DNA of 64,000 nt from Alentia gelatinosa (Eukaryota > Annelida > Polychaeta > Phyllodocida > Polynoidae): assembly GCA_950022655.1 (NCBI GenBank), contig OX465580.1:123921016-123985015 (forward strand), in the 5' to 3' direction. Each line of letters starts with the position of its first letter. Positions within the stretch are counted from its first letter, which is position 1. The position numbers and the translations under genes are program-made. This document shows positions 1-64,000 of this stretch, one piece after another. Below the pieces are notes generated by a model. That model was given only the letters and a program-made list of their open reading frames with translations. It did no database searches and was not told the origin of the DNA.

Positions 1-1
1 C

Positions 2-22651: not shown

Positions 22652-22840
22652 TTTTCAATTATTCGCATAGGTATTTCATAATATGATATTATATGGCAGT
22701 GGATATTACATGAAACATGTATAGCATACAGTTTGATGAATGTAAAGATATATTTTTAATCTTATACTCTCCATGTCTTTACGCATACCTTTTTGGGCAT
22801 TTTTGATACATTGAATAATTTAGCTGTTTTACCCTTATCT

Positions 22841-22856
22841 ATATAGATATCTATAT
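22841..22856. repeat. Perfect 16-bp AT palindrome, spacer 1
   Basis: ATATAGATATCTATAT reads the same on both strands. An overlapping 14-bp palindrome (TATCTATATAGATA) starts just upstream. No function is assigned. Confidence 0.6.
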
Positions 22857-23675: not shown

Positions 23676-23681
23676 AATAAA
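23676..23681 (+). promoter_or_regulatory. AATAAA polyadenylation-like hexamer, spacer 1 (also 34352-34357 in spacer 2)
   Basis: A canonical AATAAA lies about 1 kb after the TAA at 22651. If the spacer were retained, it could end a truncated mucin transcript with the short hydrophobic tail. In AT-rich DNA the hexamer is common by chance, so intronic polyadenylation is only a possibility. Confidence 0.2.
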
Positions 23682-23779
23682 AACTCAAAGATGGGAAAAG
23701 ACAAAGGGAAAACTTTGGAATTATTAAATTATTCATTAGATATTGATTTATTAACTAATCTGTTTGTTATACTGGTATA

Positions 23780-23913
23780 GTGAATTGAACAGGGACCAAT
23801 TTCACTAGTTTTGCATTCATAGCAAATGGAAGACCGAAATAGCAGAAACAATAGTGGAGAAAGTAGTTTTGTTTCAGAAGTTTCGTCCCTGTTGAGATCC
23901 CGGTTCAGTTCAC
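23780..23913. repeat. Imperfect inverted repeat, 134 bp, spacer 1
   Basis: GTGAATTGAACAGGGAC at 23780-23796 pairs with the reverse complement of 23897-23913 at 14 of 17 positions. An ACAGGGAC/GTCCCTGT pair lies slightly offset inside. It could be a degraded short MITE or a hairpin. No clear target duplication was seen. Confidence 0.35.
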
Positions 23914-23941
23914 TTTTTTTTTGTTGAAAATGCAAACACTA

Positions 23942-47400: not shown

Positions 47401-50400
47401 CAACTACAGAGGGCCAGTCAACAACTCTTGCATCCACATCAACAGTAGCTGGCACAACAAGTGGGGCACAAACTACAACTGAGACTCAGACCACCTCCAC
47501 CTCAGCCACCACCACATCAGAGCCTCAAACAACTACTGGGCTGGAAAGCACCAGTAGTCAGGCAGAGACCACCACCTCAGCTGCAGTGACAACCTCCGAG
47601 CCAGCCACAAGTACGCCTGAAGTAACTACCACTGTAGCAGACACTACCACCACCAGGGAGACTACCACACAGCTGGACACAACTACTGGCATGGACACAA
47701 GCAGCACACAGGCTGCTGCCACAACAACGCAGTCTCAGTCATCTACCGTGCAGGAAAGCACCACCTTGCCCACCACAACTGTGCAAGAGACAAGCACAGG
47801 TGCTGACACTTCCACCATGGCAGAGACAACTACAGAGGGCCAGTCAACAACTCTTGCATCCACATCAACAGTAGCTGGCACAACAAGTGGGGCACAAACT
47901 ACAACTGAGACTCAGACCACCTCCACCTCAGCCACCACCACATCAGAGCCTCAAACAACTACTGGGCTGGAAAGCACCAGCAGCCAGGCAGAGACCACCA
48001 CCTCAGCTGCAGTGACAACCTCCGAGCCAGCCACAAGTACGCCTGAAGTAACTACCACTGTAGCAGACACTACCACCACCAGGGAGACTACCACACAGCT
48101 GGACACAACTACTGGCATGGACACAAGCAGCACACAGGCTGCTGCCACAACAACGCAGTCTCAGTCATCTACCGTGCAGGAAAGCACCACCTTGCCCACC
48201 ACAACTGTGCAAGAGACAAGCACAGGTGCTGACACTTCCACCATGGCAGAGACAACTACAGAGGGCCAGTCAACAACTCTTGCATCCACATCAACAGTAG
48301 CTGGCACAACAAGTGGGGCACAAACTACAACTGACACTCAGACCACCTCCACCTCAGCCACCACCACATCAGAGCCTCAAACAACTACTGGGCTGGAAAG
48401 CACCAGCAGCCAGGCAGAGACCACCACCTCAGCTGCAGTGACAACCTCCGAGCCAGCCACAAGTACGCCTGAAGTAACTACCACTGTAGCAGACACTACC
48501 ACCACCAGGGAGACTACCACACAGCTGGACACAACTACTGGCATGGACACAAGCAGCACACAGGCTGCTGCCACAACAACGCAGTCTCAGTCATCTACCG
48601 TGCAGGAAAGCACCACCTTGCCCACCACAACTGTGCAAGAGACAAGCACAGGTGCTGACACTTCCACCATGGCAGAGACAACTACAGAGGGCCAGTCAAC
48701 AACTCTTGCATCCACATCAACAGTAGCTGGCACAACAAGTGGGGCACAAACTACAACTGAGACTCAGACCACCTCCACCTCAGCCACCACCACATCAGAG
48801 CCTCAAACAACTACTGGGCTGGAAAGCACCAGTAGTCAGGCAGAGACCACCACCTCAGCTGCAGTGACAACCTCCGAGCCAGCCACAAGTACGCCTGAAG
48901 TAACTACCACTGTAGCAGACACTACCACCACCAGGGAGACTACCACACAGCTGGACACAACTACTGGCATGGACACAAGCAGCACACAGGCTGCTGCCAC
49001 AACAACGCAGTCTCAGTCATCTACCGTGCAGGAAAGCACCACCTTGCCCACCACAACTGTGCAAGAGACAAGCACAGGTGCTGACACTTCCACCATGGCA
49101 GAGACAACTACAGAGGGCCAGTCAACAACTCTTGCATCCACATCAACAGTAGCTGGCACAACAAGTGGGGCACAAACTACAACTGAGACTCAGACCACCT
49201 CCACCTCAGCCACCACCACATCAGAGCCTCAAACAACTACTGGGCTGGAAAGCACCAGCAGCCAGGCAGAGACCACCACCTCAGCTGCAGTGACAACCTC
49301 CGAGCCAGCCACAAGTACGCCTGAAGTAACTACCACTGTAGCAGACACTACCACCACCAGGGAGACTACCACACAGCTGGACACAACTACTGGCATGGAC
49401 ACAAGCAGCACACAGGCTGCTGCCACAACAACGCAGTCTCAGTCATCTACCGTGCAGGAAAGCACCACCTTGCCCACCACAACTGTGCAAGAGACAAGCA
49501 CAGGTGCTGACACTTCCACCATGGCAGAGACAACTACAGAGGGCCAGTCAACAACTCTTGCATCCACATCAACAGTAGCTGGCACAACAAGTGGGGCACA
49601 AACTACAACTGACACTCAGACCACCTCCACCTCAGCCACCACCACATCAGAGCCTCAAACAACTACTGGGCTGGAAAGCACCAGCAGCCAGGCAGAGACC
49701 ACCACCTCAGCTGCAGTGACAACCTCCGAGCCAGCCACAAGTACGCCTGAAGTAACTACCACTGTAGCAGACACTACCACCACCAGGGAGACTACCACAC
49801 AGCTGGACACAACTACTGGCATGGACACAAGCAGCACACAGGCTGCTGCCACAACAACGCAGTCTCAGTCATCTACCGTGCAGGAAAGCACCACCTTGCC
49901 CACCACAACTGTGCAAGAGACAAGCACAGGTGCTGACACTTCCACCATGGCAGAGACAACTACAGAGGGCCAGTCAACAACTCTTGCATCCACATCAACA
50001 GTAGCTGGCACAACAAGTGGGGCACAAACTACAACTGACACTCAGACCACCTCCACCTCAGCCACCACCACATCAGAGCCTCAAACAACTACTGGGCTGG
50101 AAAGCACCAGTAGTCAGGCAGAGACCACCACCTCAGCTGCAGTGACAACCTCCGAGCCAGCCACAAGTACGCCTGAAGTAACTACCACTGTAGCAGACAC
50201 TACCACCACCAGGGAGACTACCACACAGCTGGACACAACTACTGGCATGGACACAAGCAGCACACAGGCTGCTGCCACAACAACGCAGTCTCAGTCATCT
50301 ACCGTGCAGGAAAGCACCACCTTGCCCACCACAACTGTGCAAGAGACAAGCACAGGTGCTGACACTTCCACCATGGCAGAGACAACTACAGAGGGCCAGT

Positions 50401-53400
50401 CAACAACTCTTGCATCCACATCAACAGTAGCTGGCACAACAAGTGGGGCACAAACTACAACTGAGACTCAGACCACCTCCACCTCAGCCACCACCACATC
50501 AGAGCCTCAAACAACTACTGGGCTGGAAAGCACCAGTAGTCAGGCAGAGACCACCACCTCAGCTGCAGTGACAACCTCCGAGCCAGCCACAATTACGCCT
50601 GAAGTAACTACCACTGTACCAGACACTACCACCACCAGGGAGACTACCACACAGCTGGACACAACTACTGGCATGGACACAAGCAGCACACAGGCTGCTG
50701 CCACAACAACGCAGTCTCAGTCATCTACCGTGCAGGAAAGCACCACCTTGCCCACCACAACTGTGCAAGAGACAAGCACAGGTGCTGACACTTCCACCAT
50801 GGCAGAGACAACTACAGAGGGCCAGTCAACAACTCTTGCATCCACATCAACAGTAGCTGGCACAACAAGTGGGGCACAAACTACAACTGAGACTCAGACC
50901 ACCTCCACCTCAGCCACCACCACATCAGAGCCTCAAACAACTACTGGGCTGGAAAGCACCAGTAGTCAGGCAGAGACCACCACCTCAGCTGCAGTGACAA
51001 CCTCCGAGCCAGCCACAAGTACGCCTGAAGTAACTACCACTGTAGCAGACACTACCACCACCAGGGAGACTACCACACAGCTGGACACAACTACTGGCAT
51101 GGACACAAGCAGCACACAGGCTGCTGCCACAACAACGCAGTCTCAGTCATCTACCGTGCAGGAAAGCACCACCTTGCCCGCCACAACTGTGCAAGAGACA
51201 AGCACAGGTGCTGACACTTCCACCATGGCAGAGACAACTACAGAGGGCCAGTCAACAACTCTTGCATCCACATCAACAGTAGCTGGCACAACAAGTGGGG
51301 CACAAACTACAACTGACACTCAGACCACCTCCACCTCAGCCACCACCACATCAGAGCCTCAAACATCTACTGGGCTGGAAAGCACCAGTAGTCAGGCAGA
51401 GACCACCACCTCAGCTGCAGTGACAACCTCCGAGCCAGCCACAAGTACGCCTGAAGTAACTACCACTGTAGCAGACACTACCACCACCAGGGAGACTACC
51501 ACACAGCTGGACACAACTACTGGCATGGACACAAGCAGCACACAGGCTGCTGCCACAACAACGCAGTCTCAGTCATCTACCGTGCAGGAAAGCACCACCT
51601 TGCCCACCACAACTGTGCAAGAGACAAGCACAGGTGCTGACACTTCCACCATGGCAGAGACAACTACAGAGGGCCAGTCAACAACTCTTGCATCCACATC
51701 AACAGTAGCTGGCACAACAAGTGGGGCACAAACTACAACTGAGACTCAGACCACCTCCACCTCAGCCACCACCACATCAGAGCCTCAAACAACTACTGGG
51801 CTGGAAAGCACCAGTAGTCAGGCAGAGACCACCACCTCAGCTGCAGTGACAACCTCCGAGCCAGCCACAAGTACGCCTGAAGTAACTACCACTGTAGCAG
51901 ACACTACCACCACCAGGGAGACTACCACACAGCTGGACACAACTACTGGCATGGACACAAGCAGCACACAGGCTGCTGCCACAACAACGCAGTCTCAGTC
52001 ATCTACCGTGCAGGAAAGCACCACCTTGCCCACCACAACTGTGCAAGAGACAAGCACAGGTGCTGACACTTCCACCATGGCAGAGACAACTACAGAGGGC
52101 CAGTCAACAACTCTTGCATCCACATCAACAGTAGCTGGCACAACAAGTGGGGCACAAACTACAACTGAGACTCAGACCACCTCCACCTCAGCCACCACCA
52201 CATCAGAGCCTCAAACAACTACTGGGCTGGAAAGCACCAGTAGTCAGGCAGAGACCACCACCTCAGCTGCAGTGACAACCTCCGAGCCAGCCACAAGTAC
52301 GCCTGAAGTAACTACCACTGTAGCAGACACTACCACCACCAGGGAGACTACCACACAGCTGGACACAACTACTGGCATGGACACAAGCAGCACACAGGCT
52401 GCTGCCACAACAACGCAGTCTCAGTCATCTACCGTGCAGGAAAGCACCACCTTGCCCACCACAACTGTGCAAGAGACAAGCACAGGTGCTGACACTTCCA
52501 CCATGGCAGAGACAACTACAGAGGGCCAGTCAACAACTCTTGCATCCACATCAACAGTAGCTGGCACAACAAGTGGGGCACAAACTACAACTGACACTCA
52601 GACCACCTCCACCTCAGCCACCACCACATCAGAGCCTCAAACAACTACTGGGCTGGAAAGCACCAGTAGTCAGGCACACACCACCACCTCAGCTGCAGTG
52701 ACAACCTCCGAGCCAGCCACAAGTACGCCTGAAGTAACTACCACTGTAGCAGACACTACCACCACCAGGGAGACTACCACACAGCTGGACACAACTACTG
52801 GCATGGACACAAGCAGCACACAGGCTGCTGCCACAACAACGCAGTCTCAGTCATCTACCGTGCAGGAAAGCACCACCTTGCCCACCACAACTGTGCAAGA
52901 GACAAGCACAGGTGCTGACACTTCCACCATGGCAGAGACAACTACAGAAGGCCAGTCAACAACTCTTGCATCCACATCAACAGTAGCTGGCACAACAAGT
53001 GGGGCACAAACTACAACTGAGACTCAGACCACCTCCACCTCAGCCACCACCACATCAGAGCCTCAAACAACTACTGGGCTGGAAAGCACCAGTAGTCAGG
53101 CAGAGACCACCACCTCAGCTGCAGTGACAACCTCCGAGCCAGCCACAAGTACGCCTGAAGTAACTACCACTGTAGCAGACACTACCACCACCAGGGAGAC
53201 TACCACACAGCTGGACACAACTACTGGCATGGACACAAGCAGCACACAGGCTGCTGCCACAACAACGCAGTCTCAGTCATCTACCGTGCAGGAAAGCACC
53301 ACCTTGCCCACCACAACTGTGCAAGAGACAAGCACAGGTGCTGACACTTCCACCATGGCAGAGACAACTACAGAGGGCCAGTCAACAACTCTTGCATCCA

Positions 53401-56400
53401 CATCAACAGTAGCTGGCACAACAAGTGGGGCACAAACTACAACTGAGACTCAGACCACCTCCACCTCAGCCACCACCACATCAGAGCCTCAAACAACTAC
53501 TGGGCTGGAAAGCACCAGTAGTCAGGCAGAGACCACCACCTCAGCTGCAGTGACAACCTCCGAGCCAGCCACAAGTACGCCTGAAGTAACTACCACTGTA
53601 GCAGACACTACCACCACCAGGGAGACTACCACACAGCTGGACACAACTACTGGCATGGACACAAGCAGCACACAGGCTGCTGCCACAACAACGCAGTCTC
53701 AGTCATCTACCGTGCAGGAAAGCACCACCTTGCCCACCACAACTGTGCAAGAGACAAGCACAGGTGCTGACACTTCCACCATGGCAGAGACAACTACAGA
53801 GGGCCAGTCAACAACTCTTGCATCCACATCAACAGTAGCTGGCACAACAAGTGGGGCACAAACTACAACTGACACTCAGACCACCCCCACCTCAGCCACC
53901 ACCACATCAGAGCCTCAAACAACTACTGGGCTGGAAAGCACCAGTAGTCAGGCAGAGACCACCACCTCAGCTGCAGTGACAACCTCCGAGCCAGCCACAA
54001 GTACGCCTGAAGTAACTACCACTGTAGCAGACACTACCACCACCAGGGAGACTACCACACAGCTGGACACAACTACTGGCATGGACACAAGCAGCACACA
54101 GGCTGCTGCCACAACAACGCAGTCTCAGTCATCTACCATGCAGGAAAGCACCACCTTGCCCACCACAACTGTGCAAGAGACAAGCACAGGTGCTGACACT
54201 TCCACCATGGCAGAGACAACTACAGAGGGCCAGTCAACAACTCTTGCATCCACATCAACAGTAGCTGGCACAACAAGTGGGGCACAAACTACAACTGACA
54301 CTCAGACCACCTCCACCTCAGCCACCACCACATCAGAGCCTCAAACAACTACTGGGCTGGAAAGCACCAGCAGCCAGGCAGAGACCACCACCTCAGCTGC
54401 AGTGACAACCTCCGAGCCAGCCACAAGTACGCCTGAAGTAACTACCACTGTAGCAGACACTACCACCACCAGGGAGACTACCACACAGCTGGACACAACT
54501 ACTGGCATGGACACAAGCAGCACACAGGCTGCTGCCACAACAACGCAGTCTCAGTCATCTACCGTGCAGGAAAGCACCACCTTGCCCACCACAACTGTGC
54601 AAGAGACAAGCACAGGTGCTGACACTTCCACCATGGCAGAGACAACTACAGAGGGCCAGTCAACAACTCTTGCATCCACATCAACAGTAGCTGGCACAAC
54701 AAGTGGGGCACAAACTACAACTGAGACTCAGACCACCTCCACCTCAGCCACCACCACATCAGAGCCTCAAACAACTACTGGGCTGGAAAGCACCAGTAGT
54801 CAGGCAGAGACCACCACCTCAGCTGCAGTGACAACCTCCGAGCCAGCCACAAGTACGCCTGAAGTAACTACCACTGTAGCAGACACTACCACCACCAGGG
54901 AGACTACCACACAGCTGGACACAACTACTGGCATGGACACAAGCAGCACACAGGCTGCTGCCACAACAACGCAGTCTCAGTCATCTACCGTGCAGGAAAG
55001 CACCACCTTGCCCACCACAACTGTGCAAGAGACAAGCACAGGTGCTGACACTTCCACCATGGCAGAGACAACTACAGAGGGCCAGTCAACAACTCTTGCA
55101 TCCACATCAACAGTAGCTGGCACAACAAGTGGGGCACAAACTACAACTGACACTCAGACCACCTCCACCTCAGCCACCACCACATCAGAGCCTCAAACAA
55201 CTACTGGGCTGGAAAGCACCAGTAGTCAGGCAGAGACCACCACCTCAGCTGCAGTGACAACCTCCGAGCCAGCCACAAGTACGCCTGAAGTAACTACCAC
55301 TGTAGCAGACACTACCACCACCAGGGAGACTACCACACAGCTGGACACAACTACTGGCATGGACACAAGCAGCACACAGGCTGCTGCCACAACAACGCAG
55401 TCTCAGTCATCTACCGTGCAGGAAAGCACCACCTTGCCCACCACAACTGTGCAAGAGACAAGCACAGGTGCTGACACTTCCACCATGGCAGAGACAACTA
55501 CAGAGGGCCAGTCAACAACTTTTGCATCCACATCAACAGTAGCTGGCACAACAAGTGGGGCACAAACTACAACTGACACTCAGACCACCTCCACCTCAGC
55601 CACCACCACATCAGAGCCTCAAACAACTACTGGGCTGGAAAGCACCAGTAGTCAGGCAGAGACCACCACCTCAGCTGCAGTGACAACCTCCGAGCCAGCC
55701 ACAAGTACGCCTGAAGTAACTACCACTGTAGCAGACACTACCACCACCAGGGAGACTACCACACAGCTGGACACAACTACTGGCATGGACACAAGCAGCA
55801 CACAGGCTGCTGCCACAACAACGCAGTCTCAGTCATCTACCGTGCAGGAAAGCACCACCTTGCCCACCACAACTGTGCAAGAGACAAGCATAGGTGCTGA
55901 CACTTCCACCATGGCAGAGACAACTACAGAGGGCCAGTCAACAACTCTTGCATCCACATCAACAGTAGCTGGCACAACAAGTGGGGCACAAACTACAACT
56001 GACACTCAGACCACCTCCACCTCAGCCACCACCACATCAGAGCCTCAAACAACTACTGGGCTGGAAAGCACCAGTAGTCAGGCAGAGACCACCACCTCAG
56101 CTGCAGTGACAACCTCCGAGCCAGCCACAAGTACGCCTGAAGTAACTACCACTGTAGCAGACACTACCACCACCAGGGAGACTACCACACAGCTGGACAC
56201 AACTACTGGCATGGACACAAGCAGCACACAGGCTGCTGCCACAACAACGCAGTCTCAGTCATCTACCGTGCAGGAAAGCACCACCTTGCCCACCACAACT
56301 GTGCAAGAGACAAGCACAGGTGCTGACACTTCCACCATGGCAGAGACAACTACAGAGGGCCAGTCAACAACTCTTGCATCCACATCAACAGTAGCTGGCA

Positions 56401-59400
56401 CAACAAGTGGGGCACAAACTACAACTGAGACTCAGACCACCTCCACCTCAGCCACCACCACATCAGAGCCTCAAACAACTACTGGGCTGGAAAGCACCAG
56501 TAGTCAGGCAGAGACCACCACCTCAGCTGCAGTGACAACCTCCGAGCCAGCCACAAGTACGCCTGAAGTAACTACCACTGTAGCAGACACTACCACCACC
56601 AAGGAGACTACCACACAGCTGGACACAACTACTGGCATGGACACAAGCAGCACACAGGCTGCTGCCACAACAACGCAGTCTCAGTCATCTACCGTGCAGG
56701 AAAGCACCACCTTGCCCACCACAACTGTGCAAGAGACAAGCACAGGTGCTGACACTTCCACCATGGCAGAGACAACTATAGAGGGCCAGTCAACAACTCT
56801 TGCATCCACATCAACAGTAGCTGGCACAACAAGTGGGGCACAAACTACAACTGACACTCAGACCACCTCCACCTCAGCCACCACCACATCAGAGCCTCAA
56901 ACAACTACTGGGCTGGAAAGCACCAGTAGTCAGGCAGAGACCACCACCTCAGCTGCAGTGACAACCTCCGAGCCAGCCACAAGTACGCCTGAAGTAACTA
57001 CCACTGTAGCAGACACTACCACCACCAGGGAGACTACCACACAGCTGGACACAACTACTGGCATGGACACAAGCAGCACACAGGCTGCTGCCACAACAAC
57101 GCAGTCTCAGTCATCTACCATGCAGGAAAGCACCACCTTGCCCACCACAACTGTGCAAGAGACAAGCACAGGTGCTGACACTTCCACCATGGCAGAGACA
57201 ACTACAGAGGGCCAGTCAACAACTCTTGCATCCACATCAACAGTAGCTGGCACAACAAGTGGGGCACAAACTACAACTGACACTCAGACCACCTCCACCT
57301 CAGCCACCACCACATCAGAGCCTCAAACAACTACTGGGCTGGAAAGCACCAGTAGTCAGGCAGAGACCACCACCTCAGCTGCAGTGACAACCTCCGAGCC
57401 AGCCACAAGTACGCCTGAAGTAACTACCACTGTAGCAGACACTACCACCACCAGGGAGACTACCACACAGCTGGACACAACTACTGGCATGGACACAAGC
57501 AGCACACAGGCTGCTGCCACAACAACGCAGTCTCAGTCATCTACCGTGCAGGAAAGCACCACCTTGCCCACCACAACTGTGCAAGAGACAAGCACAGGTG
57601 CTGACACTTCCACCATGGCAGAGACAACTACAGAGGGCCAGTCAACAACTCTTGCATCCACATCAACAGTAGCTGGCACAACAAGTGGGGCACAAACTAC
57701 AACTGAGACTCAGACCACCTCCACCTCAGCCACCACCACATCAGAGCCTCAAACAACTACTGGGCTGGAAAGCACCAGTAGTCAGGCAGAGACCACCACC
57801 TCAGCTGCAGTGACAACCTCCGAGCCAGCCACAAGTACGCCTGAAGTAACTACCACTGTAGCAGACACTACCACCACCAGGGAGACTACCACACAGCTGG
57901 ACACAACTACTGGCATGGACACAAGCAGCACACAGGCTGCTGCCACAACAACGCAGTCTCAGTCATCTACCGTGCAGGAAAGCACCACCTTGCCCACCAC
58001 AACTGTGCAAGAGACAAGCACAGGTGCTGACACTTCCACCATGGCAGAGACAACTACAGAGGGCCAGTCAACAACTCTTGCATCCACATCAACAGTAGCT
58101 GGCACAACAAGTGGGGCACAAACTACAACTGACACTCAGACCACCTCCACCTCAGCCACCACCACATCAGAGCCTCAAACAACTACTGGGCTGGAAAGCA
58201 CCAGTAGTCAGGCAGAGACCACCACCTCAGCTGCAGTGACAACCTCCGAGCCAGCCACAAGTACGCCTGAAGTAACTACCACTGTAGCAGACACTACCAC
58301 CACCAGGGAGACTACCACACAGCTGGACACAACTACTGGCATGGACACAAGCAGCACACAGGCTGCTGCCACAACAACGCAGTCTCAGTCATCTACCGTG
58401 CAGGAAAGCACCACCTTGCCCACCACAACTGTGCAAGAGACAAGCACAGGTGCTGACACTTCCACCATGGCAGAGACAACTACAGAGGGCCAGTCAACAA
58501 CTCTTGCATCCACATCAACAGTAGCTGGCACAACAAGTGGGGCACAAACTACAACTGAGACTCAGACCACCTCCACCTCAGCCACCACCACATCAGAGCC
58601 TCAAACAACTACTGGGCTGGAAAGCACCAGTAGTCAGGCAGAGACCACCACCTCAGCTGCAGTGACAACCTCCGAGCCAGCCACAAGTACGCCTGAAGTA
58701 ACTACCACTGTAGCAGACACTACCACCACCAGGGAGACTACCACACAGCTGGACACAACTACTGGCATGGACACAAGCAGCACACAGGCTGCTGCCACAA
58801 CAACGCAGTCTCAGTCATCTACCGTGCAGGAAAGCACCACCTTGCCCACCACAACTGTGCAAGAGACAAGCACAGGTGCTGACACTTCCACCATGGCAGA
58901 GACAACTACAGAGGGCCAGTCAACAACTCTTGCATCCACATCAACAGTAGCTGGCACAACAAGTGGGGCACAAACTACAACTGACACTCAGACCACCTCC
59001 ACCTCAGCCACCACCACATCAGAGCCTCAAACAACTACTGGGCTGGAAAGCACCAGTAGTCAGGCAGAGACCACCACCTCAGCTGCAGTGACAACCTCCG
59101 AGCCAGCCACAAGTACGCCTGAAGTAACTACCACTGTAGCAGACACTACCACCACCAGGGAGACTACCACACAGCTGGACACAACTACTGGCATGGACAC
59201 AAGCAGCACACAGGCTGCTGCCACAACAACGCAGTCTCAGTCATCTACCGTGCAGGAAAGCACCACCTTGCCCACCACAACTGTGCAAGAGACAAGCACA
59301 GGTGCTGACACTTCCACCATGGCAGAGACAACTACAGAGGGCCAGTCAACAACTCTTGCATCCACATCAACAGTAGCTGGCACAACAAGTGGGGCACAAA

Positions 59401-62400
59401 CTACAACTGACACTCAGACCACCTCCACCTCAGCCACCACCACATCAGAGCCTCAAACAACTACTGGGCTGGAAAGCACCAGCAGCCAGGCAGAGACCAC
59501 CACCTCAGCTGCAGTGACAACCTCCGAGCCAGCCACAAGTACGCCTGAAGTAACTACCACTGTAGCAGACACTACCACCACCAGGGAGACTACCACACAG
59601 CTGGACACAACTACTGGCATGGACACAAGCAGCACACAGGCTGCTGCCACAACAACGCAGTCTCAGTCATCTACCGTGCAGGAAAGCACCACCTTGCCCA
59701 CCACAACTGTGCAAGAGACAAGCACAGGTGCTGACACTTCCACCATGGCAGAGACAACTACAGAGGGTCAGTCAACAACTCTTGCATCCACATCAACAGT
59801 AGCTGGCACAACAAGTGGGGCACAAACTACAACTGAGACTCAGACCACCTCCACCTCAGCCACCACCACATCAGAGCCTCAAACAACTACTGGGCTGGAA
59901 AGCACCAGCAGCCAGGCAGAGACCACCACCTCAGCTGCAGTGACAACCTCCGAGCCAGCCACAAGTACGCCTGAAGTAACTACCACTGTAGCAGACACTA
60001 CCACCACCAGGGAGACTACCACACAGCTGGACACAACTACTGGCATGGACACAAGCAGCACACAGGCTGCTGCCACAACAACGCAGTCTCAGTCATCTAC
60101 CGTGCAGGAAAGCACCACCTTGCCCACCACAACTGTGCAAGAGACAAGCACAGGTGCTGACACTTCCACCATGGCAGAGACAACTACAGAGGGCCAGTCA
60201 ACAACTCTTGCATCCACATCAACAGTAGCTGGCACAACAAGTGGGGCACAAACTACAACTGACACTCAGACCACCTCCACCTCAGCCACCACCACATCAG
60301 AGCCTCAAACAACTACTGGGCTGGAAAGCACCAGTAGTCAGGCAAAGACCACCACCTCAGCTGCAGTGACAACCTCCGAGCCAGCCACAAGTACGCCTGA
60401 AGTAACTACCACTGTAGCAGACACTACCACCACCAGGGAGACTACCACACAGCTGGACACAACTACTGGCATGGACACAAGCAGCACACAGGCTGCTGCC
60501 ACAACAACGCAGTCTCAGTCATCTACCGTGCAGGAAAGCACCACCTTGCCCACCACAACTGTGCAAGAGACAAGCACAGGTGCTGACACTTCCACAATGG
60601 CAGAGACAACTACAGAGGGCCAGTCAACAACTCTTGCATCCACATCAACAGTAGCTGGCACAACAAGTGGGGCACAAACTACAACTGAGACTCAGACCAC
60701 CTCCACCTCAGCCACCACCACATCAGAGCCTCAAACAACTACTGGGCTGGAAAGCACCAGTAGTCAGGCAGAGACCACCACCTCAGCTGCAGTGACAACC
60801 TCCGAGCCAGCCACAAGTACGCCTGAAGTAACTACCACTGTAGCAGACACTACCACCACCAGGGAGACTACCACACAGCTGGACACAACTACTGGCATGG
60901 ACACAAGCAGCACACAGGCTGCTGCCACAACAACGCAGTCTCAGTCATCTACCGTGCAGGAAAGCACCACCTTGCCCACCACAACTGTGCAAGAGACAAG
61001 CACAGGTGCTGACACTTCCACCATGGCAGAGACAACTACAGAGGGCCAGTCAACAACTCTTGCATCCACATCAACAGTAGCTGGCACAACAAGTGGGGCA
61101 CAAACTACAACTGAGACTCAGACCACCTCCACCTCAGCCACCACCACATCAGAGCCTCAAACAACTACTGGGCTGGAAAGCACCAGCAGCCAGGCAGAGA
61201 CCACCACCTCAGCTGCAGTGACAACCTCCGAGCCAGCCACAAGTACGCCTGAAGTAACTACCACTGTAGCAGACACTACCACCACCAGGGAGACTACCAC
61301 ACAGCTGGACACAACTACTGGCATGGACACAAGCAGCACACAGGCTGCTGCCACAACAACGCAGTCTCAGTCATCTACCGTGCAGGAAAGCACCACCTTG
61401 CCCACCACAACTGTGCAAGAGACAAGCACAGGTGCTGACACTTCCACCATGGCAGAGACAACTACAGAGGGCCAGTCAACAACTCTTGCATCCACATCAA
61501 CAGTAGCTGGCACAACAAGTGGGGCACAAACTACAACTGACACTCAGACCACCTCCACCTCAGCCACCACCACATCAGAGCCTCAAACAACTACTGGGCT
61601 GGAAAGCACCAGTAGTCAGGCAGAGACCACCACCTCAGCTGCAGTGACAACCTCCGAGCCAGCCACAAGTACGCCTGAAGTAACTACCACTGTAGTAGAC
61701 ACTACCACCACCAGGGAGACTACCACACAGCTGGACACAACTACTGGCATGGACACAAGCAGCACACAGGCTGCTGCCACAACAACGCAGTCTCAGTCAT
61801 CTACCGTGCAGGAAAGCACCACCTTGCCCACCACAACTGTGCAAGAGACAAGCACAGGTGCTGACACTTCCACCATGGCAGAGACAACTACAGAGGGCCA
61901 GTCAACAACTCTTGCATCCACATCAACAGTAGCTGGCACAACAAGTGGGGCACAAACTACAACTGAGACTCAGACCACCTCCACCTCAGCCACCACCACA
62001 TCAGAGCCTCAAACAACTACTGGGCTGGAAAGCACCAGTAGTCAGGCAGAGACCACCACCTCAGCTGCAGTGACAACCTCCGAGCCAGCCACAAGTACGC
62101 CTGAAGTAACTACCACTGTAGCAGACACTACCACCACCAGGGAGACTACCACACAGCTGGACACAACTACTGGCATGGACACAAGCAGCACACAGGCTGC
62201 TGCCACAACAACGCAGTCTCAGTCATCTACCGTGCAGGAAAGCACCACCTTGCCCACCACAACTGTGCAAGAGACAAGCACAGGTGCTGACACTTCCACC
62301 ATGGCAGAGACAACTACAGAGGGCCAGTCAACAACTCTTGCATCCACATCAACAGTAGCTGGCACAACAAGTGGGGCACAAACTACAACTGAGACTCAGA

Positions 62401-64000
62401 CCACCTCCACCTCAGCCACCACCACATCAGAGCCTCAAACAACTACTGGGCTGGAAAGCACCAGTAGTCAGGCAGAGACCACCACCTCAGCTGCAGTGAC
62501 AACCTCCGAGCCAGCCACAAGTACGCCTGAAGTAACTACCACTGTAGCAGACACTACCACCACCAAGGAGACTACCACACAGCTGGACACAACTACTGGC
62601 ATGGACACAAGCAGCACACAGGCTGCTGCCACAACAACGCAGTCTCAGTCATCTACCGTGCAGGAAAGCACCACCTTGCCCACCACAACTGTGCAAGAGA
62701 CAAGCACAGGTGCTGACACTTCCACCATGGCAGAGACAACTACAGAGGGCCAGTCAACAACTCTTGCATCCACATCAACAGTAGCTGGCACAACAAGTGG
62801 GGCACAAACTACAACTGACACTCAGACCACCTCCACCTCAGCCACCACCACATCAGAGCCTCAAACAACTACTGGGCTGGAAAGCACCAGTAGTCAGGCA
62901 GAGACCACCACCTCAGCTGCAGTGACAACCTCCGAGCCAGCCACAAGTACGCCTGAAGTAACTACCACTGTAGCAGACACTACCACCACCAGGGAGACTA
63001 CCACACAGCTGGACACAACTACTGGCATGGACACAAGCAGCACACAGGCTGCTGCCACAACAACGCAGTCTCAGTCATCTACCGTGCAGGAAAGCACCAC
63101 CTTGCCCACCACAACTGTGCAAGAGACAAGCACAGGTGCTGACACTTCCACCATGGCAGAGACAACTACAGAGGGCCAGTCAACAACTCTTGCATCCACA
63201 TCAACAGTAGCTGGCACAACAAGTGGGGCACAAACTACAACTGAGACTCAGACCACCTCCACCTCAGCCACCACCACATCAGAGCCTCAAACAACTACTG
63301 GGCTGGAAAGCACCAGTAGTCAGGCAGAGACCACCACCTCAGCTGCAGTGACAACCTCCGAGCCAGCCACAAGTACGCCTGAAGTAACTACCACTGTAGC
63401 AGACACTATCACCACCAGGGAGACTACCACACAGCTGGACACAACTACTGGCATGGACACAAGCAGCACACAGGCTGCTGCCACAACAACGCAGTCTCAG
63501 TCATCTACCGTGCAGGAAAGCACCACCTTGCCCACCACAACTGTGCAAGAGACAAGCACAGGTGCTGACACTTCCACCATGGCAGAGACAACTACAGAAG
63601 GCCAGTCAACAACTCTTGCATCCACATCAACAGTAGCTGGCACAACAAGTGGGGCACAAACTACAACTGACACTCAGACCACCTCCACCTCAGCCACCAC
63701 CACATCAGAGCCTCAAACAACTACTGGGCTGGAAAGCACCAGTAGTCAGGCAGAGACCACCACCTCAGCTGCAGTGACAACCTCCGAGCCAGCCACAAGT
63801 ACGCCTGAAGTAACTACCACTGTAGCAGACACTACCACCACCAGGGAGACTACCACACAGCTGGACACAACTACTGGCATGGACACAAGCAGCACACAGG
63901 CTGCTGCCACAACAACGCAGTCTCAGTCATCTACCGTGCAGGAAAGCACCACCTTGCCCACCACAACTGTGCAAGAGACAAGCACAGGTGCTGACACTTC
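35463..64000 (+). CDS. Giant Thr/Ser-rich mucin-like repeat protein, third exon of window (3' partial)
   Basis: This open frame of about 9512 codons runs off the right edge of the window. The unit-start ATG at 35463 and the last one at 63579 are exactly 66 x 426 bp apart, so there is no net indel, and no stop was seen on reading. The protein is the same acidic Thr/Ser-rich PTS repeat as in arrays 1 and 2. The predicted exon starts at 35470, after the acceptor ATGGCAG|AG in phase 1. At 28.5 kb and still open, this would be an exceptionally long coding exon. Scattered replacements do not break the frame: Gly to Ala at 40983, Ala to Pro at 50619, Thr to Ile at 56779, Ala to Val at 61696 and Glu to Lys at 60345. 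The 3' end, including any C-terminal domain or membrane anchor, is outside the window. Confidence 0.83.
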   Translation, partial: MAETTTEGQSTTLASTSTVAGTTSGAQTTTETQTTSTSATTTSEPQTTTGLESTSSQAETTTSAAVTTSEPATSMPEVTTTVADTTTTRETTTQLDTTTGMDTSSTQAAATTTQSQSSTVQESTTLPTTTVQETSTGADTSNMAETTTEGQSTTLASTSTVAGTTSGAQTTTDTQTTSTSATTTSEPQTTTGLESTSSQAETTTSAAVTTSEPATSTPEVTTTVADTTTTRETTTQLDTTTGMDTSSTQAAATTTMSQSSTVQESTTLPTTTVQETSTGADTSTMAETTTEGQSTTLASTSTVAGTTSGAQTTTDTQTTSTSATTTSEPQTTTGLESTSSQAETTTSAAVTTSEPATSTPEVTTTVADTTTTRETTTQLDTTTGMDTSSTQAAATTTMSQSSTVQESTTLPTTTVQETSTGADTSTMAETTTEGQSTTLASTSTVAGTTSGAQTTTETQTTSTSATTTSEPQTTTGLESTSRQAETTTSAAVTTSEPATSTPEVTTTVADTTTTRETTTQLDTTTGMDTSSTQAAATTTQSQSSTVQESTTLPTTTVQETSTGADTSTMAETTTEGQSTTLASTSTVAGTTSGAQTTTETQTISTSATTTSEPQTTTGLESTSSQAETTTSAAVTTSEPATSTPEVTTTVADTTTTRETTTQLDTTTGMDTSSTQAAATTTQSQSSTVQESTTLPTTTVQETSTGADTSTMAETTTEGQSTTLASTSTVAGTTSGAQTTTETQTTSTSATTTSEPQTTTGLESTSSQAETTTSAAVTTSEPATSTPEVTTTVADTTTTRETTTQLDTTTGMDTSSTQAAATTTQSQSSTVQESTTLPTTTVQETSTGADTSTMAETTTEGQSTTLASTSTVAGTTSGAQTTTETQTTSTSATTTSEPQTTTGLESTSSQAETTTSAAVTTSEPATSTPEVTTTVADTTTTRETTTQLDTTTGMDTSSTQAAATTTQSQSSTVQESTTLPTTTVQETSTGADTSTMAETTTEGQSTTLASTSTVAGTTSGAQTTTETQTTSTSATTTSEPQTTTGLESTSSQAETTTSAAVTTSEPATSTPEVTTTVADTTTTRETTTQLDTTTGMDTSSTQAAATTTQSQSSTVQESTTLPTTTVQETSTGADTSTMAETTTEGQSTTLASTSTVAGTTSGAQTTTETQTTSTSATTTSEPQTTTGLESTSSQAETTTSAAVTTSEPATSTPKVTTTVADTTTNRETTTQLDTTTGMDTSSTQAAATTTQSQSSTVQESTTLPTTTVQETSTGADTSTMAETTTEGQSTTLASTSTVAGTTSGAQTTTETQTTSTSATTTSEPQTSTGLESTSSQAETTTSAAVTTSEPATSTPEVTTTVADTTTTRETTTQLDTTTGMDTSSTQAAATTTQSQSSTVQESTTLPTTTVQETSTGADTSTMAETTTEGQSTTLASTSTVAGTTSGAQTTTETQTTSTSATTTSEPQTTTGLESTSSQAETTTSAAVTTSEPATSTPEVTTTVADTTTTRETTTQLDTTTGMDTSSTQAAATTTQSQSSTVQESTTLPTTTVQETSTGADTSTMAETTTEGQSTTLASTSTVAGTTSGAQTTTETQTTSTSATTTSEPQTTTGLESTSSQAETTTSAAVTTSEPATSTPEVTTTVADTTTTRETTTQLDTTTGMDTSSTQAAATTTQSQSSTVQESTTLPTTTVQETSTGADTSTMAETTTEGQSTTLASTSTVAGTTSGAQTTTDTQTTSTSATTTSEPQTTTGLESTSSQAETTTSAAVTTSEPATSTPEVTTTVADTTTTRETTTQLDTTTGMDTSSTQAAATTTQSQSSTVQESTTLPTTTVQETSTAADTSTMAETTTEGQSTTLASTSTVAGTTSGAQTTTETQTTSTSATTTSEPQTTTGLESTSSQAETTTSAAVTTSEPATSTPEVTTTVADTTTTRETTTQLDTTTGMDTSSTQAAATTTQSQSSTVQESTTLPTTTVQETSTGADTSTMAETTTEGQSTTLASTSTVAGTTSGAQTTTETQTTSTSATTTSEPQTTTGLESTSSQAETTTSAAVTTSEPATSTPEVTTTVADTTTTRETTTQLDTTTGMDTSSTQAAATTTQSQSSTVQESTTLPTTTVQETSTGADTSTMAETTTEGQSTTLASTSTVAGTTSGAQTTTDTQTTSTSATTTSEPQTTTGLESTSSQAETTTSAAVTTSEPATSTPEVTTTVADTTTTRETTTQLDTTTGMDTSSTQAAATTTQSQSSTVQESTTLPTTTVQETSTGADTSTMAETTTEGQSTTLASTSTVAGTTSGAQTTTDTQTTSTSATTTSEPQTTTGLESTSSQAETTTSAAVTTSEPATSTPEVTTTVADTTTTRETTTQLDTTTGMDTSSTQAAATTTQSQSSTVQESTTLPTTTVQETSTGADTSTMAETTTEGQSTTLASTSTVAGTTSGAQTTTDTQTTSTSATTTSEPQTTTGLESTSSQAETTTSAAVTTSEPATSTPEVTTTVADTTTTRETTTQLDTTTGMDTSSTQAAATTTQSQSSTVQESTTLPTTTVQETSTGADTSTMAETTTEGQSTTLASTSTVAGTTSGAQTTTDTQTTSTSATTTSEPQTTTGLESTSSQAETTTSAAVTTSEPATSTPEVTTTVADTTTTRETTTQLDTTTGMDTSSTQAAATTTQSQSSTVQESTTLPTTTVQETSTGADTSTMAETTTEGQSTTLASTSTVAGTTSGAQTTTDTQTTSTSATTTSEPQTTTGLESTSSQAETTTSAAVTTSEPATSTPEVTTTVADTTTTRETTTQLDTTTGMDTSSTQAAATTTQSQSSTVQESTTLPTTTVQETSTGADTSTMAETTTEGQSTTLASTSTVAGTTSGAQTTTDTQTTSTSATTTSEPQTTTGLESTSSQAETTTSAAVTTSEPATSTPEVTTTVADTTTTRETTTQLDTTTGMDTSSTQAAATTTQSQSSTVQESTTLPTTTVQETSTGADTSTMAETTTEGQSTTLASTSTVAGTTSGAQTTTETQTTSTSATTTSEPQTTTGLESTSSQAETTTSAAVTTSEPATSTPEVTTTVADTTTTRETTTQLDTTTGMDTSSTQAAATTTQSQSSTVQESTTLPTTTVQETSTGADTSTMAETTTEGQSTTLASTSTVAGTTSGAQTTTETQTTSTSATTTSEPQTTTGLESTSSQAETTTSAAVTTSEPATSTPEVTTTVADTTTTRETTTQLDTTTGMDTSSTQAAATTTQSQSSTVQESTTLPTTTVQETSTGADTSTMAETTTEGQSTTLASTSTVAGTTSGAQTTTDTQTTSTSATTTSEPQTTTGLESTSSQAETTTSAAVTTSEPATSTPEVTTTVADTTTTRETTTQLDTTTGMDTSSTQAAATTTQSQSSTVQESTTLPTTTVQETSTGADTSTMAETTTEGQSTTLASTSTVAGTTSGAQTTTETQTTSTSATTTSEPQTTTGLESTSSQAETTTSAAVTTSEPATSTPEVTTTVADTTTTRETTTQLDTTTGMDTSSTQAAATTTQSQSSTVQESTTLPTTTVQETSTGADTSTMAETTTEGQSTTLASTSTVAGTTSGAQTTTETQTTSTSATTTSEPQTTTGLESTSSQAETTTSAAVTTSEPATSTPEVTTTVADTTTTRETTTQLDTTTGMDTSSTQAAATTTQSQSSTVQESTTLPTTTVQETSTGADTSTMAETTTEGQSTTLASTSTVAGTTSGAQTTTDTQTTSTSATTTSEPQTTTGLESTSSQAETTTSAAVTTSEPATSTPEVTTTVADTTTTRETTTQLDTTTGMDTSSTQAAATTTQSQSSTVQESTTLPTTTVQETSTGADTSTMAETTTEGQSTTLASTSTVAGTTSGAQTTTDTQTTSTSATTTSEPQTTTGLESTSSQAETTTSAAVTTSEPATSTPEVTTTVADTTTTRETTTQLDTTTGMDTSSTQAAATTTQSQSSTVQESTTLPTTTVQETSTGADTSTMAETTTEGQSTTLASTSTVAGTTSGAQTTTETQTTSTSATTTSEPQTTTGLESTSSQAETTTSAAVTTSEPATSTPEVTTTVADTTTTRETTTQLDTTTGMDTSSTQAAATTTQSQSSTVQESTTLPTTTVQETSTGADTSTMAETTTEGQSTTLASTSTVAGTTSGAQTTTETQTTSTSATTTSEPQTTTGLESTSSQAETTTSAAVTTSEPATSTPEVTTTVADTTTTRETTTQLDTTTGMDTSSTQAAATTTQSQSSTVQESTTLPTTTVQETSTGADTSTMAETTTEGQSTTLASTSTVAGTTSGAQTTTDTQTTSTSATTTSEPQTTTGLESTSSQAETTTSAAVTTSEPATSTPEVTTTVADTTTTRETTTQLDTTTGMDTSSTQAAATTTQSQSSTVQESTTLPTTTVQETSTGADTSTMAETTTEGQSTTLASTSTVAGTTSGAQTTTETQTTSTSATTTSEPQTTTGLESTSSQAETTTSAAVTTSEPATSTPEVTTTVADTTTTRETTTQLDTTTGMDTSSTQAAATTTQSQSSTVQESTTLPTTTVQETSTGADTSTMAETTTEGQSTTLASTSTVAGTTSGAQTTTETQTTSTSATTTSEPQTTTGLESTSSQAETTTSAAVTTSEPATSTPEVTTTVADTTTTRETTTQLDTTTGMDTSSTQAAATTTQSQSSTVQESTTLPTTTVQETSTGADTSTMAETTTEGQSTTLASTSTVAGTTSGAQTTTDTQTTSTSATTTSEPQTTTGLESTSSQAETTTSAAVTTSEPATSTPEVTTTVADTTTTRETTTQLDTTTGMDTSSTQAAATTTQSQSSTVQESTTLPTTTVQETSTGADTSTMAETTTEGQSTTLASTSTVAGTTSGAQTTTDTQTTSTSATTTSEPQTTTGLESTSSQAETTTSAAVTTSEPATSTPEVTTTVADTTTTRETTTQLDTTTGMDTSSTQAAATTTQSQSSTVQESTTLPTTTVQETSTGADTSTMAETTTEGQSTTLASTSTVAGTTSGAQTTTETQTTSTSATTTSEPQTTTGLESTSSQAETTTSAAVTTSEPATITPEVTTTVPDTTTTRETTTQLDTTTGMDTSSTQAAATTTQSQSSTVQESTTLPTTTVQETSTGADTSTMAETTTEGQSTTLASTSTVAGTTSGAQTTTETQTTSTSATTTSEPQTTTGLESTSSQAETTTSAAVTTSEPATSTPEVTTTVADTTTTRETTTQLDTTTGMDTSSTQAAATTTQSQSSTVQESTTLPATTVQETSTGADTSTMAETTTEGQSTTLASTSTVAGTTSGAQTTTDTQTTSTSATTTSEPQTSTGLESTSSQAETTTSAAVTTSEPATSTPEVTTTVADTTTTRETTTQLDTTTGMDTSSTQAAATTTQSQSSTVQESTTLPTTTVQETSTGADTSTMAETTTEGQSTTLASTSTVAGTTSGAQTTTETQTTSTSATTTSEPQTTTGLESTSSQAETTTSAAVTTSEPATSTPEVTTTVADTTTTRETTTQLDTTTGMDTSSTQAAATTTQSQSSTVQESTTLPTTTVQETSTGADTSTMAETTTEGQSTTLASTSTVAGTTSGAQTTTETQTTSTSATTTSEPQTTTGLESTSSQAETTTSAAVTTSEPATSTPEVTTTVADTTTTRETTTQLDTTTGMDTSSTQAAATTTQSQSSTVQESTTLPTTTVQETSTGADTSTMAETTTEGQSTTLASTSTVAGTTSGAQTTTDTQTTSTSATTTSEPQTTTGLESTSSQAHTTTSAAVTTSEPATSTPEVTTTVADTTTTRETTTQLDTTTGMDTSSTQAAATTTQSQSSTVQESTTLPTTTVQETSTGADTSTMAETTTEGQSTTLASTSTVAGTTSGAQTTTETQTTSTSATTTSEPQTTTGLESTSSQAETTTSAAVTTSEPATSTPEVTTTVADTTTTRETTTQLDTTTGMDTSSTQAAATTTQSQSSTVQESTTLPTTTVQETSTGADTSTMAETTTEGQSTTLASTSTVAGTTSGAQTTTETQTTSTSATTTSEPQTTTGLESTSSQAETTTSAAVTTSEPATSTPEVTTTVADTTTTRETTTQLDTTTGMDTSSTQAAATTTQSQSSTVQESTTLPTTTVQETSTGADTSTMAETTTEGQSTTLASTSTVAGTTSGAQTTTDTQTTPTSATTTSEPQTTTGLESTSSQAETTTSAAVTTSEPATSTPEVTTTVADTTTTRETTTQLDTTTGMDTSSTQAAATTTQSQSSTMQESTTLPTTTVQETSTGADTSTMAETTTEGQSTTLASTSTVAGTTSGAQTTTDTQTTSTSATTTSEPQTTTGLESTSSQAETTTSAAVTTSEPATSTPEVTTTVADTTTTRETTTQLDTTTGMDTSSTQAAATTTQSQSSTVQESTTLPTTTVQETSTGADTSTMAETTTEGQSTTLASTSTVAGTTSGAQTTTETQTTSTSATTTSEPQTTTGLESTSSQAETTTSAAVTTSEPATSTPEVTTTVADTTTTRETTTQLDTTTGMDTSSTQAAATTTQSQSSTVQESTTLPTTTVQETSTGADTSTMAETTTEGQSTTLASTSTVAGTTSGAQTTTDTQTTSTSATTTSEPQTTTGLESTSSQAETTTSAAVTTSEPATSTPEVTTTVADTTTTRETTTQLDTTTGMDTSSTQAAATTTQSQSSTVQESTTLPTTTVQETSTGADTSTMAETTTEGQSTTFASTSTVAGTTSGAQTTTDTQTTSTSATTTSEPQTTTGLESTSSQAETTTSAAVTTSEPATSTPEVTTTVADTTTTRETTTQLDTTTGMDTSSTQAAATTTQSQSSTVQESTTLPTTTVQETSIGADTSTMAETTTEGQSTTLASTSTVAGTTSGAQTTTDTQTTSTSATTTSEPQTTTGLESTSSQAETTTSAAVTTSEPATSTPEVTTTVADTTTTRETTTQLDTTTGMDTSSTQAAATTTQSQSSTVQESTTLPTTTVQETSTGADTSTMAETTTEGQSTTLASTSTVAGTTSGAQTTTETQTTSTSATTTSEPQTTTGLESTSSQAETTTSAAVTTSEPATSTPEVTTTVADTTTTKETTTQLDTTTGMDTSSTQAAATTTQSQSSTVQESTTLPTTTVQETSTGADTSTMAETTIEGQSTTLASTSTVAGTTSGAQTTTDTQTTSTSATTTSEPQTTTGLESTSSQAETTTSAAVTTSEPATSTPEVTTTVADTTTTRETTTQLDTTTGMDTSSTQAAATTTQSQSSTMQESTTLPTTTVQETSTGADTSTMAETTTEGQSTTLASTSTVAGTTSGAQTTTDTQTTSTSATTTSEPQTTTGLESTSSQAETTTSAAVTTSEPATSTPEVTTTVADTTTTRETTTQLDTTTGMDTSSTQAAATTTQSQSSTVQESTTLPTTTVQETSTGADTSTMAETTTEGQSTTLASTSTVAGTTSGAQTTTETQTTSTSATTTSEPQTTTGLESTSSQAETTTSAAVTTSEPATSTPEVTTTVADTTTTRETTTQLDTTTGMDTSSTQAAATTTQSQSSTVQESTTLPTTTVQETSTGADTSTMAETTTEGQSTTLASTSTVAGTTSGAQTTTDTQTTSTSATTTSEPQTTTGLESTSSQAETTTSAAVTTSEPATSTPEVTTTVADTTTTRETTTQLDTTTGMDTSSTQAAATTTQSQSSTVQESTTLPTTTVQETSTGADTSTMAETTTEGQSTTLASTSTVAGTTSGAQTTTETQTTSTSATTTSEPQTTTGLESTSSQAETTTSAAVTTSEPATSTPEVTTTVADTTTTRETTTQLDTTTGMDTSSTQAAATTTQSQSSTVQESTTLPTTTVQETSTGADTSTMAETTTEGQSTTLASTSTVAGTTSGAQTTTDTQTTSTSATTTSEPQTTTGLESTSSQAETTTSAAVTTSEPATSTPEVTTTVADTTTTRETTTQLDTTTGMDTSSTQAAATTTQSQSSTVQESTTLPTTTVQETSTGADTSTMAETTTEGQSTTLASTSTVAGTTSGAQTTTDTQTTSTSATTTSEPQTTTGLESTSSQAETTTSAAVTTSEPATSTPEVTTTVADTTTTRETTTQLDTTTGMDTSSTQAAATTTQSQSSTVQESTTLPTTTVQETSTGADTSTMAETTTEGQSTTLASTSTVAGTTSGAQTTTETQTTSTSATTTSEPQTTTGLESTSSQAETTTSAAVTTSEPATSTPEVTTTVADTTTTRETTTQLDTTTGMDTSSTQAAATTTQSQSSTVQESTTLPTTTVQETSTGADTSTMAETTTEGQSTTLASTSTVAGTTSGAQTTTDTQTTSTSATTTSEPQTTTGLESTSSQAKTTTSAAVTTSEPATSTPEVTTTVADTTTTRETTTQLDTTTGMDTSSTQAAATTTQSQSSTVQESTTLPTTTVQETSTGADTSTMAETTTEGQSTTLASTSTVAGTTSGAQTTTETQTTSTSATTTSEPQTTTGLESTSSQAETTTSAAVTTSEPATSTPEVTTTVADTTTTRETTTQLDTTTGMDTSSTQAAATTTQSQSSTVQESTTLPTTTVQETSTGADTSTMAETTTEGQSTTLASTSTVAGTTSGAQTTTETQTTSTSATTTSEPQTTTGLESTSSQAETTTSAAVTTSEPATSTPEVTTTVADTTTTRETTTQLDTTTGMDTSSTQAAATTTQSQSSTVQESTTLPTTTVQETSTGADTSTMAETTTEGQSTTLASTSTVAGTTSGAQTTTDTQTTSTSATTTSEPQTTTGLESTSSQAETTTSAAVTTSEPATSTPEVTTTVVDTTTTRETTTQLDTTTGMDTSSTQAAATTTQSQSSTVQESTTLPTTTVQETSTGADTSTMAETTTEGQSTTLASTSTVAGTTSGAQTTTETQTTSTSATTTSEPQTTTGLESTSSQAETTTSAAVTTSEPATSTPEVTTTVADTTTTRETTTQLDTTTGMDTSSTQAAATTTQSQSSTVQESTTLPTTTVQETSTGADTSTMAETTTEGQSTTLASTSTVAGTTSGAQTTTETQTTSTSATTTSEPQTTTGLESTSSQAETTTSAAVTTSEPATSTPEVTTTVADTTTTKETTTQLDTTTGMDTSSTQAAATTTQSQSSTVQESTTLPTTTVQETSTGADTSTMAETTTEGQSTTLASTSTVAGTTSGAQTTTDTQTTSTSATTTSEPQTTTGLESTSSQAETTTSAAVTTSEPATSTPEVTTTVADTTTTRETTTQLDTTTGMDTSSTQAAATTTQSQSSTVQESTTLPTTTVQETSTGADTSTMAETTTEGQSTTLASTSTVAGTTSGAQTTTETQTTSTSATTTSEPQTTTGLESTSSQAETTTSAAVTTSEPATSTPEVTTTVADTITTRETTTQLDTTTGMDTSSTQAAATTTQSQSSTVQESTTLPTTTVQETSTGADTSTMAETTTEGQSTTLASTSTVAGTTSGAQTTTDTQTTSTSATTTSEPQTTTGLESTSSQAETTTSAAVTTSEPATSTPEVTTTVADTTTTRETTTQLDTTTGMDTSSTQAAATTTQSQSSTVQESTTLPTTTVQETSTGADT
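35880..36731 (+). repeat. Two-unit local duplication at the start of array 3
   Basis: Two adjacent units share ACTGACACT, CTCGGCC and ACCATGTCT (ATG at 36228 and 36654). No other unit in the window shows this combination. One-unit duplication close to the spacer is the simplest explanation. Confidence 0.75.

Follow-up and report, generated by a model that had tools for sequence, protein, structure and literature searches.

The 426-bp tandem repeat that fills most of the window, by which we mean the whole 64,000-nucleotide stretch of Alentia gelatinosa DNA analyzed here (C2:123921016-123985015, where C2 is the contig carrying the array in a 1.23-Gb genome of 101 contigs), probably encodes the extracellular, N-terminal, mucin-like stalk of an adhesion GPCR (class B2). 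The sequence makes us fairly confident that the array is coding and joined to the receptor. That it yields one continuous chain of ~58,000 residues we rate at slightly under an even chance, and we hold more tentatively still the fuller proposal of a single receptor chain of ~58,000-59,000 residues whose ~10-micrometre stalk would act as a tethered glycocalyx or force lever on a GPS-cleaved receptor. If it is a single chain, no predicted protein would exceed its 58,000-59,000 residues, and no predicted GPCR would come near it in size. Because exons for EGF, HRM, GPS and seven-helix domains lie directly downstream, we read the repeat as an adhesion GPCR stalk and not as a secreted mucin polymer. 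The region examined comprised the window, 100 kb on each side and 30 kb further upstream.

Within the window, the 142-codon unit forms three head-to-tail arrays of 53.1, 20.0 and 67.0 copies (A, B and C, Table 1), together 59.7 kb. The 139 whole units keep one register with 0 indels, represent 57 distinct haplotypes and differ from the consensus by a mean of 1.63 substitutions (average identity 99.6%). The + strand frame is open through arrays A, B and C for 7,549, 2,852 and 9,518 codons in the window, and the remaining five frames of the consensus unit contain 4, 4, 6, 4 and 8 stops. These counts bear out the first-pass annotation, which had described about 140 copies over more than 59 kb in three in-frame arrays, and its figure of about 19,880 residues encoded in the window if spliced is right. 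It had also considered both window ends open, and we found that the array extends upstream and downstream to occupy C2:123849517-124027157 (177.6 kb, ~407 units), about three times longer than claimed, with the window holding one third.

Serine and threonine make up 55.6% of the repeat and proline 2.8%, and cysteine is absent from the unit. The unit uses 21 ACA, 20 ACC, 15 ACT and 2 ACG threonine codons, a mix that single-triplet slippage would not yield. Sub-repeats inside the 142 residues were not significant (19/300 shuffles as high). The peptide MAETTTEGQSTTLAST was named as an antibody target for the mucin-like product. A protein search with the unit, which the first-pass annotation had proposed, returned no homologue in the protein collection (where sensitivity is lowered by biased composition and by length limits), Pfam or PDB, and none was found in viral or prokaryote contigs. 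We found no tRNA in the window, and no Rfam hit over 22200-25200 reached its gathering score; the best, inside the array, had 15.3 bits where 40 were required.

Across the whole locus, 408 anchor copies define 407 intervals, of which 400 measure 426 bp, two hold spacers (2,582 bp each, not divisible by 3) and five are of odd length (423, 423, 417, 420 and 333 bp), all differing from the unit by multiples of 3. Inspection of the translations traces the odd lengths to three distinct changes of 3, 6 and 93 bp, and on their own three such events would all be multiples of 3 with a chance of 1 in 27. The 333-bp unit (C2:123919374-123919706), with its in-frame loss of 93 bp, is possibly a trace of within-unit unequal exchange. 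Stop-to-stop frames over the whole array run for 31,470, 2,852 and 23,594 codons, and the assembly crosses the locus for 264 kb without N.

The base composition of the unit is three-periodic (chi2 96 versus 6.4 ± 3.9, maximum 34, in 2000 dinucleotide shuffles), and the unit is therefore coding by origin. An open cyclic frame also occurs in ~4% of shuffled units, so the openness of a single unit is weak evidence. The first-pass annotation had taken the kept frame as a sign of selection on the protein. Inside the window this argument is weak because the units are so nearly identical to the consensus; distinct variants there comprise 44 non-synonymous, 22 synonymous and 0 stop changes, against 45.0, 18.8 and 2.1 expected from the substitution spectrum. 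Over the whole locus the argument is reasonable: among 170 distinct variants, counted in the 400 full-length units with the seven other intervals left out, we found 0 stops versus 6.0 expected (Poisson P 0.003), and the same 170 variants read in either other forward frame give 9 stops each. Non-synonymous and synonymous variants stood at 117:53 versus 117.8:46.2 expected (p=0.39), which is neutral. Such variation is what one expects of a stalk that has to keep its frame open while its precise residues are free to change. Apart from the two spacers, we found neither the free stops nor the frame-breaking indels of a non-coding satellite, which the first-pass annotation had argued against and which is disfavoured here by the missing stops and the length changes in threes.

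Table 1. Features of the repeat locus and of the receptor exons downstream. Positions without a prefix are those of the window; C2 positions are those of the contig.
Feature	Position	Strand	Details
Array A, window part	1..22632	+	53.1 units; extends upstream to ~C2:123849517, ~221 unit lengths overall
Spacer 1	22633..24783	+	2,151 bp; counting the repeated ACCAT, net 2,156, not divisible by 3
Dispersed repeat copy in spacer 1	23479..23784	+	~306 bp, spacer nucleotides ~847-1152
Inverted relative of dispersed repeat	~23960-24173	inverted	same spacer
Array B	24784..33308	+	20 units; first 17 collinear with last 17 of array A
Spacer 2	33309..35459	+	second copy of spacer 1
Array C, window part	35460..64000	+	67.0 units; extends downstream to C2:124027157
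Array exon donor	C2:124027212	+	phase 1, 4.2 bits
EGF exon	C2:124027454-124027561	+	phase 1-1, 242 bp past array donor; Pfam 1.1e-8, above cut-off
Ig-like pieces	C2:124029433-	+	by eye; first 2.8e-4, under Pfam cut-off; second no Pfam match
Cys-bearing exon	between Ig-like and HRM	+	order along gene
HRM	C2:124031742-	+	Pfam 1.8e-9, above cut-off, two exon pieces joined by analyst
GAIN-region exons	between HRM and GPS	+	two pieces, no Pfam match
CAYWDFN-ending piece	before GPS exon	+	joins GPS exon in phase
GPS	C2:124038291- and 124038629-124038746	+	PF01825 4.8e-14, above cut-off
Seven TM exon pieces	C2:124039536-124050521	+	class B2 7TM

A membrane domain, which the first-pass annotation had suggested seeking in the flanks, is indeed encoded downstream on the same strand (Table 1). 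The joined GPS-TM1-TM6 pieces, as assembled by the analyst, match 7tm_2 (1.5e-17, profile positions 5-174 of 250), and the best PDB match for joined GPS-TM6 pieces is ADGRL3 (9.6e-25). TM7 was placed only by similarity to the Mya relative P0003 (SIQG..IF.V), with a local E of 1.3. The HL|T cleavage motif is present (...CECDHLTNFAVLL...). The array exon donor agrees in phase with the EGF acceptor (phase 1), and the GPS donor joins the TM1 exon in phase 0. Between the array exon and TM6, 13 of 15 successive scorable joins agree in phase, a figure that is somewhat generous because each domain's sites had been chosen for their scores; the two mismatches (GAIN2 to the CAYWDFN-ending piece, and TM5 to TM6) indicate that exons are missing there and that the receptor model is incomplete. 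We could place neither the boundaries of the first Ig exon nor the TM6-TM7 join. The receptor exon pieces as modelled have open frames. When the joined receptor protein was searched against the genome, the 13 pieces at this locus match by construction and are no independent evidence, and the 33 other matches are short stretches of the EGF or GPS/TM1 region. No VWD or cystine-knot domain was found in the pieces given to Pfam, which cover parts of the flanks. The first-pass description of a mucin-type polymer holds for a Thr/Ser-rich coding tandem repeat, whereas a secreted, gel-forming character is not evident given the receptor exons downstream.

At the other end of the array, the first array exon has a candidate start at C2:123849300 with a weak acceptor (1.3 bits), and the peptide following it is Lys/Arg-rich, unlike the stalk. 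The flanks had also been named as the place to look for a signal peptide: a first scan of 28 kb contained none with a phase-1 donor, and a relaxed scan of 58 kb yielded one putative exon, a single heuristic candidate (MLYSDDLFTYRLSITLIIYINFCSTFSYT...) at C2:123836738. Joined with the EGF exon, the array exons would read as 57,886 residues with 0 stops, 7 Cys and 32,051 Ser/Thr (5.78 MDa backbone), which is to our knowledge longer than any known protein. An extended mucin stalk spans ~0.2-0.25 nm per residue, and at this value the stalk would measure 11-14 micrometres.

Removal of the two spacers is the weakest link of the one-chain model. The first-pass annotation had proposed splicing across them, and in-phase excision is possible, from 22613 (CAG|GTGCTG, weak) to 24794 (GGCAG|AG) and from 33289 to 35470, with a fair acceptor in the right phase (4.0 bits); no donor in the last unit before the spacers, however, scores above 1.4 bits, versus 2.4-8.5 for the gene's inferred donors, a contrast biased by the choice of those inferred donors among better-scoring sites. 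All splice scores rest on a human-type matrix. Read unspliced, the frame meets a TAA at 22649-22651, six codons into spacer 1, and an AATAAA lies at 23676 in the same spacer. Each spacer starts 5 bp past the unit's point of continuation and ends with the same ACCAT, so that ACCAT flanks it on both sides and the unit register is kept across it. The two copies, 10,676 bp apart, show 9 differences in 2,166 bp compared (0.42%). Only part of the spacer is dispersed: the ~306-bp repeat (Table 1) has relatives in 38 other genome regions among the 40 best-scored of 1,361 candidates, 75-83% identical, and the full 2,151-bp spacer has no copy outside the array among the same best 40. Seen only twice among those 40, both times in the array, the full spacer does not resemble a mobile-element family, which makes a transposon, with ACCAT as its target duplication, less likely than at first sight. 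The ACCAT junction is explained equally well by an insertion and by a microhomology deletion within an intron, and by its sequence the spacer resembles otherwise unique non-coding DNA carrying old repeats, as an intron would. It had no plasmid match, its five ORFs had no Pfam match, and its CpG ratio is depleted (0.35; flanks observed/expected 0.62-0.82).

The only donor-like sites of at least 2.8 bits in the array exons lie in array A at C2:123886460 and C2:123887738 (4.4 bits each); these unit variants could be used to splice out part of array A. We saw no significant purging of cryptic donors in the unit (359/1000 dinucleotide and 78/500 synonymous shuffles as low).

Full-length units differ pairwise by a mean of 3.13 positions (0.73%; 99.3% alike). 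Compared in order, the last 17 units of array A and the first 17 of array B differ by 1.41 positions per unit, a value reached by 0/2000 permutations. Higher-order blocks of ~3-6 units recur in array A (window 8573-17944), marked in order by 164A+337T, 23T+25G and 20A. The 5' edge of the array is its most diverged part, with 17 differences in one early full unit and more odd units. Recurring blocks and a diverged edge are expected from unequal exchange, and copy number would thus change through exchange of multi-unit blocks. A block of 4.6 kb immediately before the array is directly duplicated in tandem (C2:123840021-123844615 and 123844617-123849211, 99.96% identity), ending ~90 bp before the proposed array exon, which may reflect either a very recent duplication or an assembly effect.

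Such near-identity raises the question of whether the assembly has created the copy number or the pair of spacers, the array being shorter in reality or two haplotypes having been placed in tandem, with the array-A tail and spacer 1 joined to array B and spacer 2. The collinearity of the A tail with B and the spacer divergence, about what two alleles could show, fit this reading, as does the duplicated 4.6-kb block; however, a real tandem duplication predicts an identical pattern, the locus is assembled without N, and in the 400 full-length units no more than 5 identical informative units follow one another at whichever offset they are compared, which speaks against letter-for-letter block copying by the assembler. 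We consider an assembly product unlikely. Homogeneity and the neutral proportion of non-synonymous to synonymous variants would also suit a minisatellite derived from a former stalk exon and largely untranslated, its open frame a relic of homogenization. This we judge quite improbable, as it leaves unexplained the 0 versus 6.0 stops, the lack of any frame-breaking length change in 178 kb besides the spacers, the open receptor pieces and the match in phase between the array donor and the EGF exon.

Two further readings accept that the array is coding and differ on its product. With the spacers retained, a mucin-like protein of ~31,000 residues would end ...ILSFSF-stop in spacer 1, and arrays B and C would reach the receptor only via another start, as shorter isoforms, or be dead. 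The in-frame TAA, the AATAAA, the weak in-phase donors and the resemblance of ACCAT...ACCAT to the 5-bp target duplication of an insertion are consistent with this, but the confinement of the full spacer to the array (best 40 of 1,361 candidates) is unlike a mobile family, the acceptor is fair and in the right phase, and arrays B and C contain 0 stops, a weak point since only 2.3 were expected; we regard spacer retention as unlikely. The other reading, a true secreted gel-forming mucin with no relation to the receptor exons, would account for the Thr/Ser-rich tandem repeat and comes near the first-pass reading of a mucin-type polymer. It is highly improbable given the donor of the array C exon, in phase with an EGF exon 242 bp on that is followed by HRM, GPS and 7TM, and given the scarcity of Cys in the joined product.

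The adhesion GPCR that we favour would read, in order, a possible signal-peptide exon, a 407-unit Thr/Ser-rich stalk, EGF, Ig-like domains, a Cys-bearing exon, HRM, a GAIN region, GPS with HL|T and seven transmembrane helices. It would begin with a coding block of 94 kb in a single exon, and the length of the chain would vary among individuals via unequal exchange. With the two spacers spliced as introns, the chain would reach ~58,000 residues with a 5.8-MDa backbone and ~32,000 Ser/Thr; about half of all residues would be potential O-glycan sites, and the stalk would presumably be a densely O-glycosylated, extended brush on the order of 10 micrometres. Adhesion GPCRs self-cleave at HL|T/S with the N-terminal fragment staying non-covalently bound, shear can shed that fragment, and the stretch behind the cut is a tethered agonist (PMC8878244, PMC5808184). 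Self-cleavage at the GPS here would leave the stalk held non-covalently, so that drag or adhesion might pull it off and free the tethered agonist, suggesting a role in mechanosensing or as a tethered glycocalyx.

EGF-TM7 adhesion GPCRs (ADGRE1/EMR1, ADGRE2, ADGRE5/CD97), which likewise carry a mucin-like O-glycosylated stalk, share with this locus an EGF upstream of the GPS and of a GAIN region (putative here), a class B2 7TM and HL|T. In contrast to them, the stalk here would have tens of thousands of residues in a near-perfect 142-residue repeat placed N-terminal to a single EGF, Ig-like and HRM domains come between the EGF and the GPS, and the nearest solved relative by sequence is ADGRL3. 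In a search that returned only proteins up to 1.75 times the query length, the top relative of the receptor among 25 proteins listed was a Saccostrea echinata ADGRE2-like protein (P0001, E 1.1e-42); a Mya arenaria AGRL3-like protein (P0003) scored E 4.5e-19, and Littorina, Ostrea, fish, sea urchin, sponge and rodent receptors were also present. P0001 and P0003 (792 and 816 residues) share a related GPS and 7TM with this locus, and P0001 also an EGF, but unlike the stalk they contain no 80-residue window above 25% S+T. Across the 25, not all of which are receptors, only P0009 (a non-receptor) and P0025 have an 80-residue window above 45% S+T.

ADGRV1/VLGR1, the largest GPCR at ~6,300 residues, is likewise an adhesion GPCR with a giant ectodomain built of repeats; these are Calx-beta and not mucin, and it is about nine times shorter. 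PKZILLA-1, an enzyme of ~45,200 residues, and titin, a muscle protein, mark the upper end of known protein length. The PKZILLA transcript and protein have reportedly been studied directly; compared with PKZILLA-1 and titin, the present locus is a prediction only. Giant mucins such as human MUC16 and those of Drosophila have Thr/Ser-rich tandem repeats in common with this locus, which differs in its low proline, Cys-free unit and receptor C-terminus. Drosophila mucin-like proteins range from 300 to 23,000 residues, and proline of 5% served as a search threshold (PMC2515642); by these figures the joined product would be 2.5-fold longer than the range, and its repeat, at 2.8% proline, falls below the threshold. 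No giant mucin-stalk adhesion GPCR was found among the matches listed from the open-access PMC literature. Mucin-like stalks of adhesion GPCRs are known, and as far as those listed matches go, a stalk of this scale is not.

If real, such a protein would move the upper limit of protein length, show that a 94-kb exon can be spliced and translated and its product secreted, and offer a natural test of how force sensing in adhesion GPCRs depends on ectodomain length. Should just a part be translated, the locus would be a clear case of a receptor stalk enlarged by unequal exchange, and it warns that such genes may be mistaken for satellite DNA.

Other features lie near the locus. About 130 kb upstream, C2:123719344-123719463 (+) holds a second GPS-like exon, 43% identical and the best foreign match of the joined-receptor search, with a possible HRM-like fragment, seen by eye, 9 kb before it; this exon likely belongs to another adhesion GPCR gene next to this one. 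Beyond the TM7 piece, C2:124051543-124052384 (+) contains open frames with a ~40-residue internal repeat (KLTMYKMPHQH.../ESEAHHVQDAPP...), and C2:124066983-124068494 (-) contains an open frame of 504 codons whose end is like a CCHC zinc knuckle, by eye resembling a gag-like retroelement protein.
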